A stretch of DNA of 64,000 nucleotides from Streptomyces sp. NBC_01276 (lineage in GTDB: Bacteria; Actinomycetota; Actinomycetes; Streptomycetales; Streptomycetaceae). Positions within the stretch are counted from its first letter, which is position 1, and each line of letters begins with the position of its first letter. Shown here one piece after another: positions 3,463 through 53,856 of this stretch. Below the pieces are notes generated by a model that was not told where the DNA came from, did not search any database, and was given only the letters and a program-made list of their open reading frames with translations. The DNA is taken from assembly GCF_041435355.1 (NCBI RefSeq), contig NZ_CP108442.1, forward strand, positions 2,356,001 through 2,420,000, given 5' to 3'. Both the position numbers and the translations under genes were made by a program.

Positions 3463-5694
3463 TCAGCGGGAAAGGGGGGCCGAGGGCGCGTGGTCCGCGT
3501 TCGGCCGCTGCGTCGGAAGTGTCGCACGGGGGCGGCACTCCGGGGGTTCGATGCTGATGCGGGGCAGCCGGCGGTCCAGCCAGCGGGGTATCCACCAGTT
3601 CGCCCCGCCGAGCAGGTGCATGAGGGCGGGGACGAGCAGGGTGCGCAGGACGAAGGCGTCCAGCGCGACGGCGGCGGCGAGGGCGATGCCGAACATCGCG
3701 ATGAGGCGGTCGCCGCTGAGCACGAACGCGAGGAAGACGGAGATCATGATGACGGCCGCGGAGTTGATCACCCGGCTGGTCTCGGCGAGTCCCACCCGGA
3801 CGGCCCGCCGGTTGTCACCGGTCTCCAGCCATTCCTCGTACATCCGGCTGACCAGGAACACCTGGTAGTCCATGGAGAGCCCGAACAGCACGGAGACCAT
3901 GATCACCGGGAGGAAGGGCTCGATCGGGCCGGCGCTGCCGAGGCCCAGCAGCTCGCTCCCCCAGCCCCATTGGAAGATCACGACGACCACGCCGAAGGAC
4001 GAGGCGACGGCCGCGACGTTCATGGCGGCCGCCTTGAGCGGGATGCCGAGGGAGCGGAAGGCCAGCAACAGGAGCAGGCAGCCCAGGGTGATGACCACCC
4101 CGACGAAGAGGGGCAGCTTGCCGACGATCACCCCGGCGAAGTCGTCGTAGCCGGCCGTCACGCCGCCGACGTGGGCCTCCATGGTGCTGCCCCGCCCGGC
4201 GCGCGGGATGACGTCGCGGCGCAGGGTGTCGACCAGCTCGCTCGTGGCCCGGGACTGCGGCGCGGACCGCGGTACGACCGTGAGGACGGCGGTGTCTCCG
4301 CTGCGGTTGAAGACGGCGGGACCGGCGGAGGCGACGTTCCCGGTGGTACGCAGGGCCTCGGTCAGCCGGTCGACGGCGACGTGGTCGCCGGCCCCGTCGA
4401 GGCGGGCGACGATCGCGAGCGGGCCGTTCGTGCCGGGCCCGAACCCCTCGGCCAGCAGGTCGTACGCCTTGCGGGTGGTGGATCCGGCCGGATTGTTGCC
4501 CTGGTCGGAGGTGCCGAGGTGGAGCGAGAGGGTGGGCAGTGCCAGCACCAGCATGACCAGCGTGGCGAGCAGGCCGAGCGGCTTGGGGTGGCGCTCCACG
4601 AAGGCGGACCAGCGGGCTGCGAATCCGGTGGGCGACTCCGGGCGGGGGCCCTCGGCGGCGAGTTTGCGGCGTTCGCGGCGCGAGAGGGCCCGGGGGCCTA
4701 TGTACGAGAGGAGGGCGGGCAGCAGGGTGACGGAGGCCGCCACCGTGAGGACCACGGTGAGGGAGGCGGCCAGCGCGACGCCGTCGAGGAAGTCCAGCCG
4801 CAGCACCAGCATGCCGAGCAGGGCTATGCAGACGGTGGCCCCGGCGAAGACGACGGCCCGGCCCGTGGTGGCGACGGCGTTCTCGGCGGCCTCGGCGACG
4901 GTGAGCCCGCGGGTCAGCCCCTTGCGGTGCCGCGTGACGATGAACAGGGCGTAGTCGATGCCCACACCGAGGCCGACGAGCGTGCCCAGCATCGGCGCGA
5001 AGTCGGCGACGGGCATGGCGTGCCCGAGGAGGGTGATTGCGAAGTAGGCGCTGCCGACGCTCACCAGGGCGGTCGCGATGGGCAGCAGGCTCGCGGCGAG
5101 GGAGCCGAAGGCGAGGAAGAGGACCACGGCGGCGATGACGACGCCGATGACCTCGGCGAGGTGGGCGCTGGGCGCCTCGGTCAGCCCTATCGCGCGGCCG
5201 CCGAGTTCGACCTGGAGTCCGTCGGCCCGGGTGGCCGGGTCGCGGACCGTGTCCACGACCGCCTTGGCCTGGGAGCGGGGTACGGAGTCGGCCGGCCGGT
5301 CGAAGGTGACGACGGCGTAGGCGGTGCGGCCGTCGGGGCTGATCTGCGCGGCGCCGGCGGGGCCCGGCCCGTAGGGCCCGACGACCGATCCGACGCCGGG
5401 CAGGGCGGCGACGGCGTCCAGGGCCCGGGTCATGCGCCGTTCGACGTCCGGGGTCCGCGCGTTCTGGTGGTCCGGGGTCCGCCACACGATGGTGTCGGTG
5501 TCACCGCCCTGACCGTGGAAACCCTCCCGCAGGAGGGCGTTCGCCTTCGCCGACTCCGTGCCGGGAACCTCGTAGTCGTTGGAGAACGCGGTTCCGGCCG
5601 CGCCGGCCGCGGCGGCGGTGGCGCCGAGGGCGAGCAGCCAGATCAGGACGGTGACCAGTCGGTGCCGCATGCACCACCGTGCGATTGCTGCCAA
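3463..5694 (-). CDS. MMPL-family transporter
   Basis: A 743-residue RND/MMPL-type integral membrane exporter. It shows the family layout twice: one N-terminal helix, a large extracytoplasmic loop (from about residue 45, with VGPYGPGPAGAAQISPDG), then a bundle of helices, and the same again. The conserved pattern GLGVGIDYALFIVTRHR closes the first half and LFGLSMDYQVFLVSRMYEEW the second; the Asp-Tyr pairs are the proton-relay positions. Such proteins export lipids or toxic small molecules. The start is a TTG with GGGAG eight bases before it; an in-frame ATG eight codons on is the alternative. No MarR or TetR regulator is adjacent. A short direct repeat (AACTCGTG twice) lies upstream at about 5750-5768. 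Confidence 0.9.
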   Translation of the reverse strand: MAAIARWCMRHRLVTVLIWLLALGATAAAAGAAGTAFSNDYEVPGTESAKANALLREGFHGQGGDTDTIVWRTPDHQNARTPDVERRMTRALDAVAALPGVGSVVGPYGPGPAGAAQISPDGRTAYAVVTFDRPADSVPRSQAKAVVDTVRDPATRADGLQVELGGRAIGLTEAPSAHLAEVIGVVIAAVVLFLAFGSLAASLLPIATALVSVGSAYFAITLLGHAMPVADFAPMLGTLVGLGVGIDYALFIVTRHRKGLTRGLTVAEAAENAVATTGRAVVFAGATVCIALLGMLVLRLDFLDGVALAASLTVVLTVAASVTLLPALLSYIGPRALSRRERRKLAAEGPRPESPTGFAARWSAFVERHPKPLGLLATLVMLVLALPTLSLHLGTSDQGNNPAGSTTRKAYDLLAEGFGPGTNGPLAIVARLDGAGDHVAVDRLTEALRTTGNVASAGPAVFNRSGDTAVLTVVPRSAPQSRATSELVDTLRRDVIPRAGRGSTMEAHVGGVTAGYDDFAGVIVGKLPLFVGVVITLGCLLLLLAFRSLGIPLKAAAMNVAAVASSFGVVVVIFQWGWGSELLGLGSAGPIEPFLPVIMVSVLFGLSMDYQVFLVSRMYEEWLETGDNRRAVRVGLAETSRVINSAAVIMISVFLAFVLSGDRLIAMFGIALAAAVALDAFVLRTLLVPALMHLLGGANWWIPRWLDRRLPRISIEPPECRPRATLPTQRPNADHAPSAPLSR

Positions 5695-47852: not shown

Positions 47853-48032
47853 TTGGTGTTCGGGAAACCGGTGGAAAACCGGTGCGGCCCTCGCCACTGT
47901 GATCGGGAAGTCCGGCTCTACTCCTGCGGGAAGCCACTGGGCCCGCGCGGGAGACCGCACGGCCCCGGGAAGGCGGAGTCAGGGCATCAGTACCCGTGAG
48001 CCAGGAGACCGGCCGGGGCGCGTCGTCCATCC
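47853..48032 (+). promoter_or_regulatory. cobalamin riboswitch
   Basis: Conserved parts of the B12 element appear in order: TTGGTGTTCGGGAAACCGGT with GGTGGAAAACCGGTGCGG, then CTCGCCACTGTGATCGGGAAG, GCGGGAAGCCACTGG, CCGGGAAGGCGG and the B12 box AGCCAGGAGACCGGCC (47999-48014). It should shut down the cobalt-uptake genes when adenosylcobalamin is abundant. The ribosome binding site GGAGAGGT (48043-48050) follows closely. Confidence 0.95.
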
Positions 48033-48060
48033 ACGAGGTGCTGGAGAGGTCTCTCTACTC

Positions 48061-48771
48061 ATGCATATAGCCGAGGGGTTCCTGCCCCCCTTGCACGCGG
48101 TCGCCTGGGGCGCCGCGTCCGCCCCGTTCGTCGTCCACGGAGTCCGCGCCCTCACCCGCGAGGTGAAGGCCCATCCGGAGAGCACCCTGCTGCTCGGGGC
48201 CTCGGGGGCGTTCACCTTCGTCCTGTCCGCGCTCAAGATCCCCTCGGTGACGGGCAGCTGCTCCCACCCGACCGGTACCGGGCTCGGCGCCATCCTCTTC
48301 CGGCCGCCCGTCATGGCGGTGCTCGGTACGATCACCCTGCTGTTCCAGGCCCTGCTGCTGGCGCACGGCGGGCTCACCACCCTCGGCGCCAACGTCTTCT
48401 CGATGGCCATCGCCGGGCCCTGGGCCGGCTACGCCGTCTACCGGCTGCTGCGGAAGTCCGGTGCGCCGCTGATGGTGACCGTCTTCCTGGGCGCCTTCTT
48501 CGCCGACCTCGTCACCTACTGCGTGACCTCCGTCCAGCTGGCGCTGGCCTTCCCGGACCCGGGCAGCGGCTTCTGGGGCGCGCTGGAGAAGTTCGCGGGG
48601 ATCTTCGCCCTGACGCAGATCCCGCTCGCGGTGAGCGAGGGGCTGCTGACGGTGCTCGTGATGCGCCTGCTGATGCAGTCCAGCAAGTCGGACCTGGTCC
48701 GGCTCGGGGTCGCGAAGCTGACCGGCGCGGCCGGCGCGGCCGGCGCGCAGAAGGAGGCGACGGTCCGATGA
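48061..48771 (+). CDS. cbiM: ECF cobalt transporter substrate-specific subunit
   Basis: A 236-residue CbiM, the metal-binding S component of a group I ECF transporter. The N-terminus [17 protein letters not shown] is essential: Met1 amine and His2 bind the metal in this family. The remaining ligands lie in [17 protein letters not shown]. Seven helices are expected. Start at 48061 gives the obligatory Met-His. Controlled by the upstream cobalamin riboswitch, which indicates cobalt rather than nickel. Overlaps cbiN by 4 bases. Confidence 0.95.
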
Positions 48772-49151
48772 CCCGCAACGCGAAGATCAACACCCTGCTG
48801 CTGCTCCTGGTGGCCGCGCTGGCCGTGCTCCCGCTCGCACTGGGGCTCGGCGACGGCGAGGAGGAGCCGTTCACGGGCGCCGACGCACAGGCGGAGTCGG
48901 CCATCACCGAGCTGAAGCCCGACTACCAACCCTGGTTCTCGCCGCTGTACGAACCCCCGTCCGGGGAGATCGAGTCGGCGCTGTTCGCCCTCCAGGCGGC
49001 GCTCGGCGCGGGCGTGCTGGCGTACTACTTCGGCGTGCGCAAGGGTCGCCGGCAGGGCCTCGCCCAGGCGGCCGCGGCCTCCGCGGACCCGGCCGGGTCC
49101 GCCGCCGGGTCCGCCGCCGGGCCCGGCGCCACGACCGTCGCGGAGTCGTAG
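48768..49151 (+). CDS. cbiN: ECF cobalt transporter auxiliary subunit
   Basis: A 127-residue CbiN with two membrane helices: [20 protein letters not shown] at the N-terminus and [20 protein letters not shown]. The loop between them contains [20 protein letters not shown] and [19 protein letters not shown], the CbiN signature needed to load CbiM. The C-terminal 30 residues are an Ala/Gly/Ser-rich tail. ATGA overlap with cbiM; three bases separate it from cbiQ. Confidence 0.93.
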
Positions 49152-49154
49152 GCG

Positions 49155-49901
49155 GTGCTGCCGATCGACGTGGCGGCGCACTCCAGCCGCTGGCGCCGCC
49201 GCCACCCCCTGGAGAAGGCCCTGCTGGGACTCGGCCTGACCGTCACCGCCGTGTCCCTGCCGCCCTGGCCCGGCGGGCCGCTGGTCGCCGCGGCGACCCT
49301 GGCCGTGCTGCTCGGCCCGGCGGGGGTGGCGGGGCGGCAGCTGTGGCGGGCCTTCCGGGTGCCGCTCGGCTTCTGCGTGACCGGGGCGCTGCCGCTGCTG
49401 GTGTCGCTGGGCGGACCCGCCGGTTTCGTCTCCCTGGCGCCGGACGGGCCCCGGCACGCCGGGGAGCTGCTGCTGCGCACCTCGGCGGCCTCGCTCGGCG
49501 TGCTCCTGTTCGCCTTCACCACCCCGGTCTCGGACGTGCTGCCGCGCCTGGTGCGGGCGGGGGTGCCCGCACCGGTGGTGGACGTGGCCCTCGTGATGTA
49601 CCGGATCGGCTTCCTGCTGCTGGATTCGATGGCCCAGGTCCGCCGGGCGCAGGCGGCCCGGCTCGGACAGACGGGCCGGGCCGCGGTGTGGCGTTCCCTG
49701 GCCGGGCTCGCGGCGACCTCCTTCGTCCGGGCCTTCGACCGCGCGGGCCGGCTCCAGGAGGGGCTGGCCGGGCGCGGCTACGACGGCGCGCTGCGGGTGC
49801 TCGTCCCGCGGGCGGCACTGTCCTGGCGGTTCCTCGCGGCCACCGCCGCCCTGCTGACCGGCCTGGTCGCGGGGACCCTCGTACTGAAGGAGTTCCTGTG
49901 A
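49155..49901 (+). CDS. cbiQ: ECF cobalt transporter T component
   Basis: A 248-residue transmembrane coupling protein with about five helices. The second coupling motif is visible as QAARLGQTGRAAVW and the later FDRAGRLQEGLAGRGYDGAL, with the A-R-G type patterns that contact the ATPase. It starts at a GTG (MLPIDVAAHSSRWRRRHPLE); the R-x-x-x-P-x-x-K start (RRHPLEKALLG) is typical. It overlaps cbiO by 4 bases. Confidence 0.93.
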   Translation: MLPIDVAAHSSRWRRRHPLEKALLGLGLTVTAVSLPPWPGGPLVAAATLAVLLGPAGVAGRQLWRAFRVPLGFCVTGALPLLVSLGGPAGFVSLAPDGPRHAGELLLRTSAASLGVLLFAFTTPVSDVLPRLVRAGVPAPVVDVALVMYRIGFLLLDSMAQVRRAQAARLGQTGRAAVWRSLAGLAATSFVRAFDRAGRLQEGLAGRGYDGALRVLVPRAALSWRFLAATAALLTGLVAGTLVLKEFL

Positions 49902-50722
49902 CCGTGGTGGTGGAGCTGGCCGGGGCGGGCCATGCGTACGAGGACGGCCCGGCCGTGCTGTCCGGCGTGGACTTCGGGATCGAGCAGGGCCGCGCGCTGG
50001 TCCTGCTCGGCCGCAACGGCAGCGGGAAGACCACGCTGATGCGGCTGCTGAGCGGGGGCCTGCGGCCCGGTACCGGCGAGCTGCGCCTGGACGGCGCGCG
50101 GGTGGCGTACGACCGGGCGGGGCTGACCCGCCTGCGGACCTCGGTGCAGCTGGTGGTCCAGGACCCGGACGACCAGCTGTTCGCGGCCTCCGTGGAACAG
50201 GACGTGTCCTTCGGCCCGATGAACCTGGGGCTGGCGGAGCCGGAGGTCCGCGCGCGGGTCGACGCCGCCCTGGCCGCCCTGGACATCACCGCGCTGCGGG
50301 ACCGCCCCACCCACCTGCTCTCGTACGGGCAGCGCAAGCGCGCGGCGATCGCGGGGGCGGTGGCCATGGCGCCGCGGGTGCTGATCCTGGACGAGCCGAC
50401 GGCCGGGCTGGACCCGGACGGTCAGGAGCGGCTCCTGGACGTGCTGGCGGGGCTGCGGTCGGACGGCACCACGGTGGTCATGGCCACGCACGACGTGGAC
50501 CTGGCGGTCCGCTGGGCGGACGACGCGGCGGTGCTGACCCCGTCGGGCATCCGGACCGGACCGGCTCCCGAGCTGCTGTCGGATCCGGGGCTGCTGGCCT
50601 CGGCGGGACTGCGCCAGGCCTGGTCCCCCGCGGTGACGGCCTTCCTGCGCGCCCGGGGCCTCCTGTCCGGGGACGCTCCGGGCCCCCGCACCCCGGAGGC
50701 GCTGACCGGCTTCCGGCCCTGA
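49898..50722 (+). CDS. cbiO: ECF cobalt transporter ATPase
   Basis: A 274-residue ABC ATPase: Walker A LVLLGRNGSGKTTLMRLLSG, the Q-loop VQDPDDQLFAASVEQDVSFG typical of ECF ATPases, signature LSYGQRKRAAIAGAVAM and Walker B RVLILDEPTAGLDPDG. Energises cobalt uptake with CbiQ. The GTG start overlaps the cbiQ stop and has AAGGAG five bases upstream. A single ATPase gene means a homodimer. The end of the cbiMNQO operon; no obvious hairpin follows before the PadR gene 30 bases later. Confidence 0.94.
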   Translation: MTVVVELAGAGHAYEDGPAVLSGVDFGIEQGRALVLLGRNGSGKTTLMRLLSGGLRPGTGELRLDGARVAYDRAGLTRLRTSVQLVVQDPDDQLFAASVEQDVSFGPMNLGLAEPEVRARVDAALAALDITALRDRPTHLLSYGQRKRAAIAGAVAMAPRVLILDEPTAGLDPDGQERLLDVLAGLRSDGTTVVMATHDVDLAVRWADDAAVLTPSGIRTGPAPELLSDPGLLASAGLRQAWSPAVTAFLRARGLLSGDAPGPRTPEALTGFRP

Positions 50723-51328: not shown

Positions 51329-51370
51329 ACCGCGCCCCCGCCCCGGCAGGGGGACGGGGGCGGCGCGGGG
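51329..51370. terminator. GC-rich hairpin between PadR and EF-hand genes
   Basis: CGCGCCCCCGCCCCG (51331-51345) can pair imperfectly with the following GGGGACGGGGGCGGCGCGG. It lies between two convergent genes and is likely bidirectional. Confidence 0.55.
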
Positions 51371-51372
51371 GC

Positions 51373-51585
51373 CTACTTGTTCAGGGCGGCCCAGAACTCG
51401 TCGAAGCTCATCAGGCCGTCGCCGTTGGTGTCCTTGGAGGCGACCACGGCGTCCGCGACCGAGGCGGTGACGAACGCGTCGCCCATCGCCTTCATGGCCG
51501 CGCTGTACTCGTCGGCCGTGACGAAGCCGTCACCGTTCACGTCGAACTTGTTGAACGTCGCCCGTGCGCTCTCGATGTCCGCCAC
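51373..51585 (-). CDS. small EF-hand calcium-binding protein
   Basis: A 70-residue protein with two canonical EF-hand loops: DVNGDGFVTADE and DTNGDGLMSFDE, each with Asp/Asn/Asp and a final Glu at the correct places, so both should bind calcium. It resembles the short calmodulin-like Cab proteins of Streptomyces. The start at the GTG giving MADIESARATFNKF is preferred: AAGGGG lies eight bases upstream, whereas the GTG three codons earlier overlaps that binding site. Cytoplasmic, target unknown. Confidence 0.9.
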   Translation of the reverse strand: MADIESARATFNKFDVNGDGFVTADEYSAAMKAMGDAFVTASVADAVVASKDTNGDGLMSFDEFWAALNK

Positions 51586-51740
51586 TGGGTCCACCCCTTC
51601 TTGGTGCTTGTTGACCGGCTCAGGGTAGCGGCACCCGGAACGGAGCGCCGCCGCGGGTCCCGTTCAACCGGCAGAAAGAAATTCAATTACTCTTCCGTAA
51701 CGCGGAAGCGATAATTCCAGCCAACAATTCCGCCGTGCAC

Positions 51741-51815: not shown

Positions 51816-52637
51816 GTGGCAACAAGGGCGACCACACAGGTGACGATCACAGTTGACGCATCATTCGAAGTTCTGCCCTTCACCCGCACCTGCCGCCACA
51901 TCTGGGAAGACGGCGACCATGTGCTGATCGGAGTGAGTCCCGGCAACAGCTACTTCAGCTCCGAACGCATATCGAGCCTCGCCAGGTGGGCCACGACCCG
52001 CTTCGCGCAGGTCGACTTCGTCTACGCAGACCTCCACGTAGACCGGATGTTCGCCGCTTTCGGCTACACCCGCGAGCATGCGGAGAAGCGTTCGGCGAAG
52101 GAGATCAAGGCGGTCCGGAGAAGGATTCTCAAAGGCGTCGAGGAATCAGTACCCCAGCATGCCGAGATCCGGGTGAGGGCACTTTCGGAGTTCCAGTCGA
52201 ACCCCGTTTACCAACTACTGCACCGACGCGTTCTGCATTTCTTGGAGACCGACGACGTATTCCGCAAGGGCTGCGAGGAGATGGCCCTTCACTTTGTCGG
52301 ATCGAAGTTGCCGGAAGGTGAATCCATCACCGACGCTCAGTTGCAGGTCTGTTTCGATTACATGGCAGCGGAGCTGCCCTTCTTCGTGGACACCCCGAGC
52401 ATTCTCGACGTGCCGTCCTCGGTGGCGGCCTACCACGTCAAGATGCCGATGACCGACGTCCTCTTCGCGCGGGGCGGGGGCCTGCGCGCGACGCGCAACC
52501 AGGCGTACGCCGTCGTGCGCCCCGAGGCCGCCGGGACCACGCCCCCCGTACCGCCCCACGACACCACCGCGCGGGACACCCCCGCGCACAGCACCGCACC
52601 GACCGAGAGGACCGTCGATGAGCGTCGAGCAGCTTGA
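51816..52637 (+). CDS. cyclodipeptide synthase (tRNA-dependent, NYH type)
   Basis: A 273-residue cyclodipeptide synthase, which joins two amino acids from aminoacyl-tRNAs into a diketopiperazine. All catalytic residues of AlbC are present at a constant +4 offset: nucleophile Ser41 (AlbC S37) and Asn44 (N40) in IGVSPGNSYFS, Tyr182 (Y178) and Glu186 (E182) in CFDYMAAELPFF, Tyr206-His207 (Y202-H203) in SSVAAYHVKMP; this makes it an NYH-subfamily enzyme. VDFVYADLHVDRM, VRALSEFQSNPVYQLLH and FARGGGLRATRNQ resemble Rv2275, the cyclo(Tyr-Tyr) synthase of M. tuberculosis. Residues ~235-273 are a Pro/Thr-rich tail. Start GTG. Codon use is less G/C-biased than neighbours, hinting at transfer. It overlaps the P450 gene by 20 bases. 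Confidence 0.95.
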   Translation: MATRATTQVTITVDASFEVLPFTRTCRHIWEDGDHVLIGVSPGNSYFSSERISSLARWATTRFAQVDFVYADLHVDRMFAAFGYTREHAEKRSAKEIKAVRRRILKGVEESVPQHAEIRVRALSEFQSNPVYQLLHRRVLHFLETDDVFRKGCEEMALHFVGSKLPEGESITDAQLQVCFDYMAAELPFFVDTPSILDVPSSVAAYHVKMPMTDVLFARGGGLRATRNQAYAVVRPEAAGTTPPVPPHDTTARDTPAHSTAPTERTVDERRAA

Positions 52638-53856
52638 GGGCACGGAGGAACGGGAGCCCCTCCTGGACTTCCCCCTCTCCCGGCGCGGTGACGTGCTCCC
52701 CGAGGAGTGCTCCTGGCTGCGCGAGAAGGCCCCGGTCGCCCGGGTCCGGACCCTCACCGGGGACCCGGCCTGGCTCGTGAGCAGCTACGCGCTGGCCAAG
52801 CAGGTACTGGAGGACGAGCGCTTCAGCCTCAAGGACACCGCCAACGCCGGGGCGCCCCGCCAGTACGCGCTGACGATCCCGCCCGAGGTCGTCAACAACA
52901 TGGGCAACATCAACAGCGCCGGGCTGCGCAACGCGGTCATGAAGGCGCTCAACCCGAGGCAGAAGGGCCTCCAGGACTTCCTGCGCGCCACGGCCGGGGA
53001 GCTGATCGACGCCCTGGTCTCCGAGGGCGGGCCGGCCGACCTCCGGGCGGGGTTCGCCGACCCCTTCTCGGCGGCCCTGCACTGCCGGGTGCTGGGTGTG
53101 CCCTTCGAGGACCGGCGGCGGCTGATGTCGGGGCTGGACGTCGCGTTCATGACCGCCCGCGAGCCCTTCGCCGATTCCGCGCTCAACTGGTACAAGGACG
53201 TCGGCTACTTCGCCGACGCGTTCAAGACGCAGCTGGCGCGGCCCGCCGAGGAGCGTACGGGGCTCCTCGGAAGGTTCGCCGGACTGCGGGAGGCCGACCC
53301 GGAGTCGGCCCATCTGACGGACGAGATGTTCGCGACCGTCGCCGTCTCGCTCTTCGGCGCGGGCGCGGTCTCCACGTCCGCGTTCCTGGTCCTGGCGGTC
53401 CTCGCCCTGCTCCAGCGGCCGGAGCTGATCGGGTACCTGCGCGAGCACCCGGAGCGCATGGGCGGGGCGGTGGACGAACTGCTGCGCTGGAACCTGTCCG
53501 TGGGCGACGGCCTGCCGCGCCTCGCGATGGCGGACGTCCAGGTCGGGGACGTGCTGGTGAAGGAGGGCGAGCTGGTGCTCGTCCTGCTGGAGGGGGCCAA
53601 CTTCGACCCGGAGGCCTTCGAGCGCCCGGACGAGCTGGACCTGGAGCGGGAGGGCGCCAACGCCCACCTCGCCTTCGGCGCCGGCCGGCACTTCTGCCCG
53701 GCGTCCGCGCTGGGCCGGGCGCACGCGGAGATCGCCCTGGAGGTGCTGGTCGAGCGGCTGCCCGAACTGCGCCTGGCCGTACCCGCGGAGAACCTCGTCT
53801 GGCGGACCGGGTTCATCAAGCGGCTGCCCGAGCGGCTGCCCGTCGCCTGGCAGTAA
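52618..53856 (+). CDS. cytochrome P450, CYP121-like (mycocyclosin-synthase type)
   Basis: A 412-residue soluble P450. The heme-ligand Cys360 is in HLAFGAGRHFCPASALGR; the helix-I segment is FGAGAVSTSAF, lacking the usual acid-Thr pair but keeping the Ser of CYP121 (Ser237). Many stretches match CYP121 as I remember it: ALTIPPEVVNNMGNI, GELVLVLLEGANFDPEAF, RLAMADVQVGDVLVKEGEL, LVWRTGF-KRLPERLPVAW. The active-site Phe (VAFM) and Trp (LNWYKD) are kept, but the CYP121 pair Gln385-Arg386 is Ile-Lys here. CYP121 couples the two rings of cyclo(Tyr-Tyr) to mycocyclosin. The gene overlaps the synthase gene by 20 bases, with GAGAGG upstream. Likely phenol or aryl coupling; the product needs proof. Confidence 0.93.
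   Translation: MSVEQLEGTEEREPLLDFPLSRRGDVLPEECSWLREKAPVARVRTLTGDPAWLVSSYALAKQVLEDERFSLKDTANAGAPRQYALTIPPEVVNNMGNINSAGLRNAVMKALNPRQKGLQDFLRATAGELIDALVSEGGPADLRAGFADPFSAALHCRVLGVPFEDRRRLMSGLDVAFMTAREPFADSALNWYKDVGYFADAFKTQLARPAEERTGLLGRFAGLREADPESAHLTDEMFATVAVSLFGAGAVSTSAFLVLAVLALLQRPELIGYLREHPERMGGAVDELLRWNLSVGDGLPRLAMADVQVGDVLVKEGELVLVLLEGANFDPEAFERPDELDLEREGANAHLAFGAGRHFCPASALGRAHAEIALEVLVERLPELRLAVPAENLVWRTGFIKRLPERLPVAWQ

Follow-up and report, generated by a model that had tools for sequence, protein, structure and literature searches.

A cyclodipeptide synthase–CYP121-family P450 gene pair of Streptomyces sp. NBC_01276, very probably of the guanitrypmycin type rather than a mycocyclosin pathway

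Both branches of the pathways that pair a cyclodipeptide synthase (CDPS) with a CYP121-family cytochrome P450 have already been published, i.e., the guanitrypmycins on the Trp side and the gym clusters on the Tyr side, and the gene pair described here probably represents a pathway type known in close relatives. The gym clusters of Streptomyces are two-gene CDPS-P450 clusters reported to give cyclo(Tyr-Tyr) (cYY), mycocyclosin and guatyromycines (PMC10092475). On the Trp side, the P450 GutD5737 of S. purpureus (cluster gut5737) is described as joining guanine to cyclo(Trp-Trp) (cWW) through a C8-N1 bond, the product being guanitrypmycin C3-1 (PMC7954767). The same source gives identities to GutD5737 of 75% for GutD2774 and 57% for GutD5414. 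Guanitrypmycin C3-4 has once been named as the product of GutD2774 (PMC13122648), which does not fit the account in PMC7954767. For the cluster of S. xanthophaeus NRRL B-5414, reviews give hypoxanthine-cWW as the main product and the guanine adduct as a minor one (PMC7954767; PMC10092475), and its enzyme is reported to give mainly the hypoxanthine C2-indole C3 adduct. PtmB is reported to couple cWW with both guanine and hypoxanthine (PMC13122648).

We have analysed a stretch of 64,000 nucleotides (the window) from Streptomyces sp. NBC_01276, whose genome (9.37 Mb, 5 contigs) contains this one CDPS only. As an earlier, sequence-only reading had noticed, the frames of a CDPS and of a CYP121-family P450, both open and intact on the forward strand, overlap here by 20 bases (52618-52637). 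The CDPS matches PF16715 (4.9e-86), and the P450, from the ATG at 52618 to the stop at 53856 (412 aa), matches PF00067 (3.6e-16). The same reading had started the CDPS at the GTG at 51816, which gives 273 aa up to the stop at 52637. The GTG located 24 bases downstream, at 51840 (265 aa), is the more likely start, judging from its conservation: an equivalent start codon was found in 25 of 25 sequences (the window plus 24 loci; 24 GTG and one TTG), compared with three of 25 for the GTG at 51816. Around the latter position the frame is shifted by indels in four other sequences and in the S. xanthophaeus locus (L010) an ATG follows two codons later, while three loci (L009, L014 and L019) are interrupted by an in-frame stop shortly before the equivalent of 51840. 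With this start, the Pfam match and the catalytic and pocket residues described below, the gene at 51840..52637 is predicted to code for a GutA-like cyclo(Trp-Trp) synthase. The one at 52618..53856, by its identities, its position in the tree and the retained haem Cys, would code for a GutD-like cyclo(Trp-Trp) nucleobase transferase. The overlap was identical in the 23 close orthologues checked (23/23), occurred in 24 of the 78 CDPS-containing loci, and is consistent with translational coupling of the two genes. The dN/dS values against 10 loci were between 0.09 and 0.25 for each gene, i.e., both are under purifying selection. Taken with the conserved overlap, these values indicate that the gene pair is more than a chance arrangement.

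The NYH-type CDPSs are recognized by Ser37, Asn40, Tyr178, Glu182 and Tyr202 (AlbC numbering), the NYH signature itself being Asn40, Tyr202 and His203. In the window CDPS the five residues are S41, N44, Y182, E186 and Y206, the constant +4 offset that had been read from the sequence before, and together with the Pfam domain they identify the protein as an NYH-type enzyme. The positions of the substrate pockets P1 and P2 were taken from PMC5816076. They read LGVALFFA and MHFSVMP in the window CDPS, VGVTMLFN and LRFTQLP in Rv2275 (PDB 2x9q), and LGVVLLFL and MAVNITP in AlbC. The motif LGVALFFA is listed twice in PMC5816076, with Trp as the accommodated residue. The group of enzymes synthesizing cW2X (Trp in P1) is characterized by (V/I)A at positions 3-4 of an LG(V/I)ALF-type P1, and the window enzyme, with V-A at this place, belongs to it; the V-A pair is also carried by a Phe-type enzyme, CDPS 66 (PMC5816076). 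In the window CDPS an Ala occupies the position of N251 of Rv2275, the Asn that is reported to be indispensable for the recognition of Tyr (PMC5816076). As to the second residue of the cyclodipeptide, the P2 motifs are reported not to reveal it for these enzymes (PMC5816076), and one other than Trp is possible. In that source the CDPS 63 of S. lavendulae makes 62% cWW plus cWP, cWA, cWL and others, and the CDPS 64 of S. purpureus makes 100% cWW (Table 1). The pockets that we found in the S. purpureus locus (L035), LGVALFFS/MTFPQIP, are labelled Trp/Tyr in Table 2 of PMC5816076, at odds with Table 1 for CDPS 64.

Among proteins of the PDB, the best matches of the window P450 were 9o4d (650 bits, 77% identity), PtmB (8yxt, 568 bits, 67%), GymB1 (8q6z, 503 bits, 60%) and M. 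tuberculosis CYP121 (1n40, 489 bits, 57%). By the rules of P450 nomenclature, more than 40% identity places two proteins in the same family, and the window P450 is thus a member of CYP121. The CYP121-like stretches quoted in the sequence-only reading are present in it, and the Gln385-Arg386 pair of CYP121 is Ile-Lys, also as described there. None of the NCBIfam P450 models reached its cut-off with this protein (92 vs. 500 bits for the CDPS-associated TIGR04538), and a search of viral contigs gave 28 pattern matches and no relative. S. lavendulae subsp. lavendulae CCM 3239 has a P450 96% identical to that of the window. The PDB entry 9o4d is labelled just “Cytochrome P450 121”. It shares 99% identity with the P450 found in S. 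purpureus JCM 3172 (L035), the species that is the source of GutD5737, and is therefore probably the guanine-coupling enzyme; its deposited name invites the same misreading, CYP121 taken to mean mycocyclosin, as happened with the window.

A scan of a genome collection gave 206 relatives, and the best 80 of these 206 were kept as loci, 78 of which had a CDPS that could be read. P1 was of the Trp type in 51 of the 78, all 51 with Ile-Lys at the positions of CYP121 385-386, and of the Tyr type in the other 27, all of them with Met-Lys. Two of the Tyr-type loci were imperfect: the CDPS of L063 is broken between frames, and that of L077 deviates at the N-terminal pocket and catalytic Ser positions. 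P1 of the CDPS and residues 385-386 of the P450 therefore separate a Trp (nucleobase) from a Tyr (mycocyclosin) branch across the 78 loci as one split of the tree; the 78 loci do not count as independent events, and the residue pair marks a clade without proving a mechanism. In the genus of the window, CDPS genes were found in 107 of the 295 genomes searched. Two Streptomyces loci (L027 and L028) have Ile-Lys in an intact P450 without an intact CDPS, and a shrunken CDPS-like remnant lies beside it (about 4789-4998 and 4784-5014, respectively), so that the P450 looks like an orphan tailoring enzyme. In two of the 80 loci the CDPS and P450 form a single uninterrupted frame, L041 (4215-6224, Streptomyces sp. 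MspMP-M5) and L056 (1155-3596, Streptomyces sp. ISL-98), possibly coding for a natural fusion protein.

The phylogeny of the P450s was computed carefully over 45 rows (the window, four PDB rows, 36 of the 80 loci and four outgroups). GymB1, CYP121 and the 10 sampled Tyr-type loci formed one clade (100/100), with the window P450 outside it, which is the result that the sequence-only reading had itself named as speaking against mycocyclosin. The window grouped with L002 (100/95), within a set of seven rows that included the S. xanthophaeus row (100/99), i.e., with a GutD-type P450 paired with a Trp-type CDPS. The set holding the window and the S. purpureus row (98/99) also contained the Tyr clade, and PtmB fell outside this set. 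A quick tree of all 89 rows had the same outcome.

The chromosomal surroundings give a similar picture. Downstream of the pair, on the opposite strand, there are genes for a YncE-like beta-propeller protein and a polysaccharide deacetylase, and upstream there is a PadR-type regulator and, by eye, a small EF-hand-like frame. We recognized no further biosynthetic gene among the neighbours examined around the pair. Among the best 80 of the 206 relatives, YncE and the deacetylase were found downstream in 35 (those of S. purpureus and S. xanthophaeus included), and 27 had PadR upstream; all the loci with either kind of neighbour were of the Trp type or the orphan P450 loci L027 and L028. None of the three genes was found beside the 27 Tyr-type loci, within up to 5 kb on each side (some shortened by contig ends). 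These common neighbours indicate that the pair is orthologous by position to that of S. xanthophaeus. That many Streptomyces have kept the locus at the same place in the chromosome suggests a product of importance to them. The EF-hand-like frame (about 51370-51594, minus strand) lies between the PadR gene and the CDPS and has similar counterparts in L027 and L028. Adjoining the PadR gene there are cobalt/nickel-uptake-like genes (CbiM, CbiN, CbiQ and CbiO by eye; 47899-50722), and 19 of these best 80 loci have a CbiQ-like gene on the upstream side of the pair.

The Trp-type P1, the match of all pocket residues with the S. xanthophaeus enzyme, the position of the P450 in the tree and the common neighbours lead us to read the pair as very probably a two-gene cluster of the guanitrypmycin type, in which cyclo(Trp-Trp) would be made and then joined to a purine. 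The CDPS would use two Trp-tRNAs to form cyclo(L-Trp-L-Trp) through an aminoacyl intermediate on Ser41. The P450 would then oxidize the indole and attach the purine to it through a C-C or C-N bond, with no oxygen being inserted. Hypoxanthine is the most likely partner, with guanine as a minor one. We infer the substrate, the nucleobase and the chemistry by analogy with the published relatives, and the exact indole-purine bond is not predictable from the present data.

The sequence-only reading had proposed instead a mycocyclosin-type pathway, with a cyclo(Tyr-Tyr) synthase and a P450 that makes an intramolecular C-C bond. The resemblance behind this proposal is real, as the P450 shares 57% of its residues with M. 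tuberculosis CYP121 and 60% with GymB1, the best PDB match of the CDPS is Rv2275 (2x9q, 3.7e-63) and the NCBIfam model with the best E-value is that of cyclodityrosine synthases (NF052540). However, the score with this model, 269.2 bits, falls below its cut-off of 300, whereas the cut-off of the general CDPS model TIGR04539 is exceeded (268 vs. 45 bits). The pockets point in the same direction: for the cYY (Rv2275-like) group, four table rows of PMC5816076 give a P1 of VG(V/I)TMLFN, with Asn at position 8, and a P2 resembling L..(F/Y).QLP, and the window CDPS departs from both, with Ala in the place of the Asn. A Tyr-type reading of the CDPS was rejected on these residues and on the NF052540 score. 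The P450, with Ile-Lys and neither Met-Lys nor Gln-Arg, is outside the clade of the mycocyclosin synthases (CYP121A1 and GymB1), and the published P450s nearest to it are reported to couple cWW with purines (PMC7954767; PMC10092475; PMC13122648). A mycocyclosin pathway is therefore highly improbable here, and what could have been a plausible misannotation is corrected: a P450 that resembles CYP121 need not make mycocyclosin. The warning attached to that proposal, that Ile-Lys might mean another substrate or coupling mode, fits the Trp-type CDPS and the purine-coupling relatives well. Nor was such a two-gene cluster new outside mycobacteria, since gym pairs of Streptomyces making mycocyclosin are already in print (PMC10092475).

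Two other possibilities keep Trp in the first pocket. The cyclodipeptide coupled to guanine or hypoxanthine might be mixed, i.e., cyclo(Trp-Tyr), cyclo(Trp-Phe) or another Trp-Xaa, as would be allowed by the uninformative P2 and by the several cW-X products of the S. lavendulae CDPS 63 (PMC5816076), and guanitrypmycins derived from cWY and cWF are reported (PMC7954767). We consider this unlikely, because all 15 pocket residues are shared with the enzyme of S. xanthophaeus NRRL B-5414, and the products reported for the cluster of that strain are adducts of cWW. A dimerization or simple oxidation of cyclo(Trp-Trp), with no transfer of a nucleobase, is suggested by the CDPS-linked P450s NzeB, AspB and TtpB1, which dimerize Trp-containing cyclodipeptides (PMC7954767), but these enzymes are far from the window P450 (PDB bit scores of 166-191 vs. 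650 for 9o4d and 568 for PtmB) and this outcome seems extremely improbable.

The gene trees also bear on the direction of evolution. In both of them the Tyr pairs, with Rv2275 and CYP121, were drawn nested among the Trp pairs, from which it could be argued that the mycocyclosin pair of M. tuberculosis descends from ancestors similar to the window pair, with Trp as substrate and a nucleobase as coupling partner. We regard this descent as a tentative and rather doubtful proposal; if true, the window would lie near the ancestral condition of an important drug target instead of being a copy of it. The Trp rows formed a clade in none of the 200 bootstrap trees of the careful P450 analysis, and the trees would not support clade status for the Trp-type P450s. 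In the AU test, however, a Trp clade was not rejected (p 0.418), a result compatible with two sister clades. For the CDPS, the Tyr rows nested inside the Trp rows in a quick tree rooted on AlbC. A careful tree that included BtCDPS rejected the Trp clade (p 0.0004), a test that is not clean as to direction, since the BtCDPS row is very long and of odd composition and AlbC fell among the Trp rows beside L056. A search for CDPS outgroups gave 30 loci, all 30 with a P450 of at least 270 bits nearby, so that none was usable as an outgroup lacking a CYP121-like neighbour.

Among the known systems, Rv2275-Rv2276 of M. tuberculosis is, like the window, a two-gene arrangement of a CDPS and a CYP121-family P450 (57% identity), but it has Tyr-type pockets and the Gln-Arg pair, and its P450 forms one clade with GymB1. 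The gym clusters share the same two-gene design (GymB1, PDB 8q6z, 60%) and differ from the window in the Met-Lys pair, the VGVTMLFN pocket and the separate clade that they form with Tyr-type CDPS loci. The Kitasatospora systems, ptmA/ptmB of K. mediocidica and gut24283 of K. azatica, are closer in that they are reported as two genes acting on cWW and guanine/hypoxanthine and have Ile-Lys. PtmB is 67% identical to the window P450, the linkages formed by these systems are reported as different (PMC13122648), and the locus used for the comparison (L046) has a CDPS only 51% identical to that of the window and no flanking genes in common. The gut5737 cluster of S. purpureus shares the downstream neighbours and the Ile-Lys pair, with a P450 76–77% identical to that of the window, although its CDPS is only 60% identical with different pockets (LGVALFFS/MTFPQIP), and the reported nucleobase (guanine) and bond (C8-N1) also differ. 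Of the published systems, that of S. xanthophaeus NRRL B-5414 comes closest. The genome of this strain contains a single CDPS and one close P450 (tblastn identity of 91%, against 38% for the following one), so that L010 should be the published gut5414 pair, and we have taken it as such. The identity between the P450s of L010 and L035 is 74%, which does not match the 57% published for GutD5414 and GutD5737, and there must be an error either in a published number or in our identification of L010 as GutD5414. The L010 proteins are 92% (P450) and 89% (CDPS) identical to those of the window, the P450s thus differing in 8% of their residues, and all 15 pocket residues, the gene order, the 20-base overlap and the chromosomal site are the same in both.
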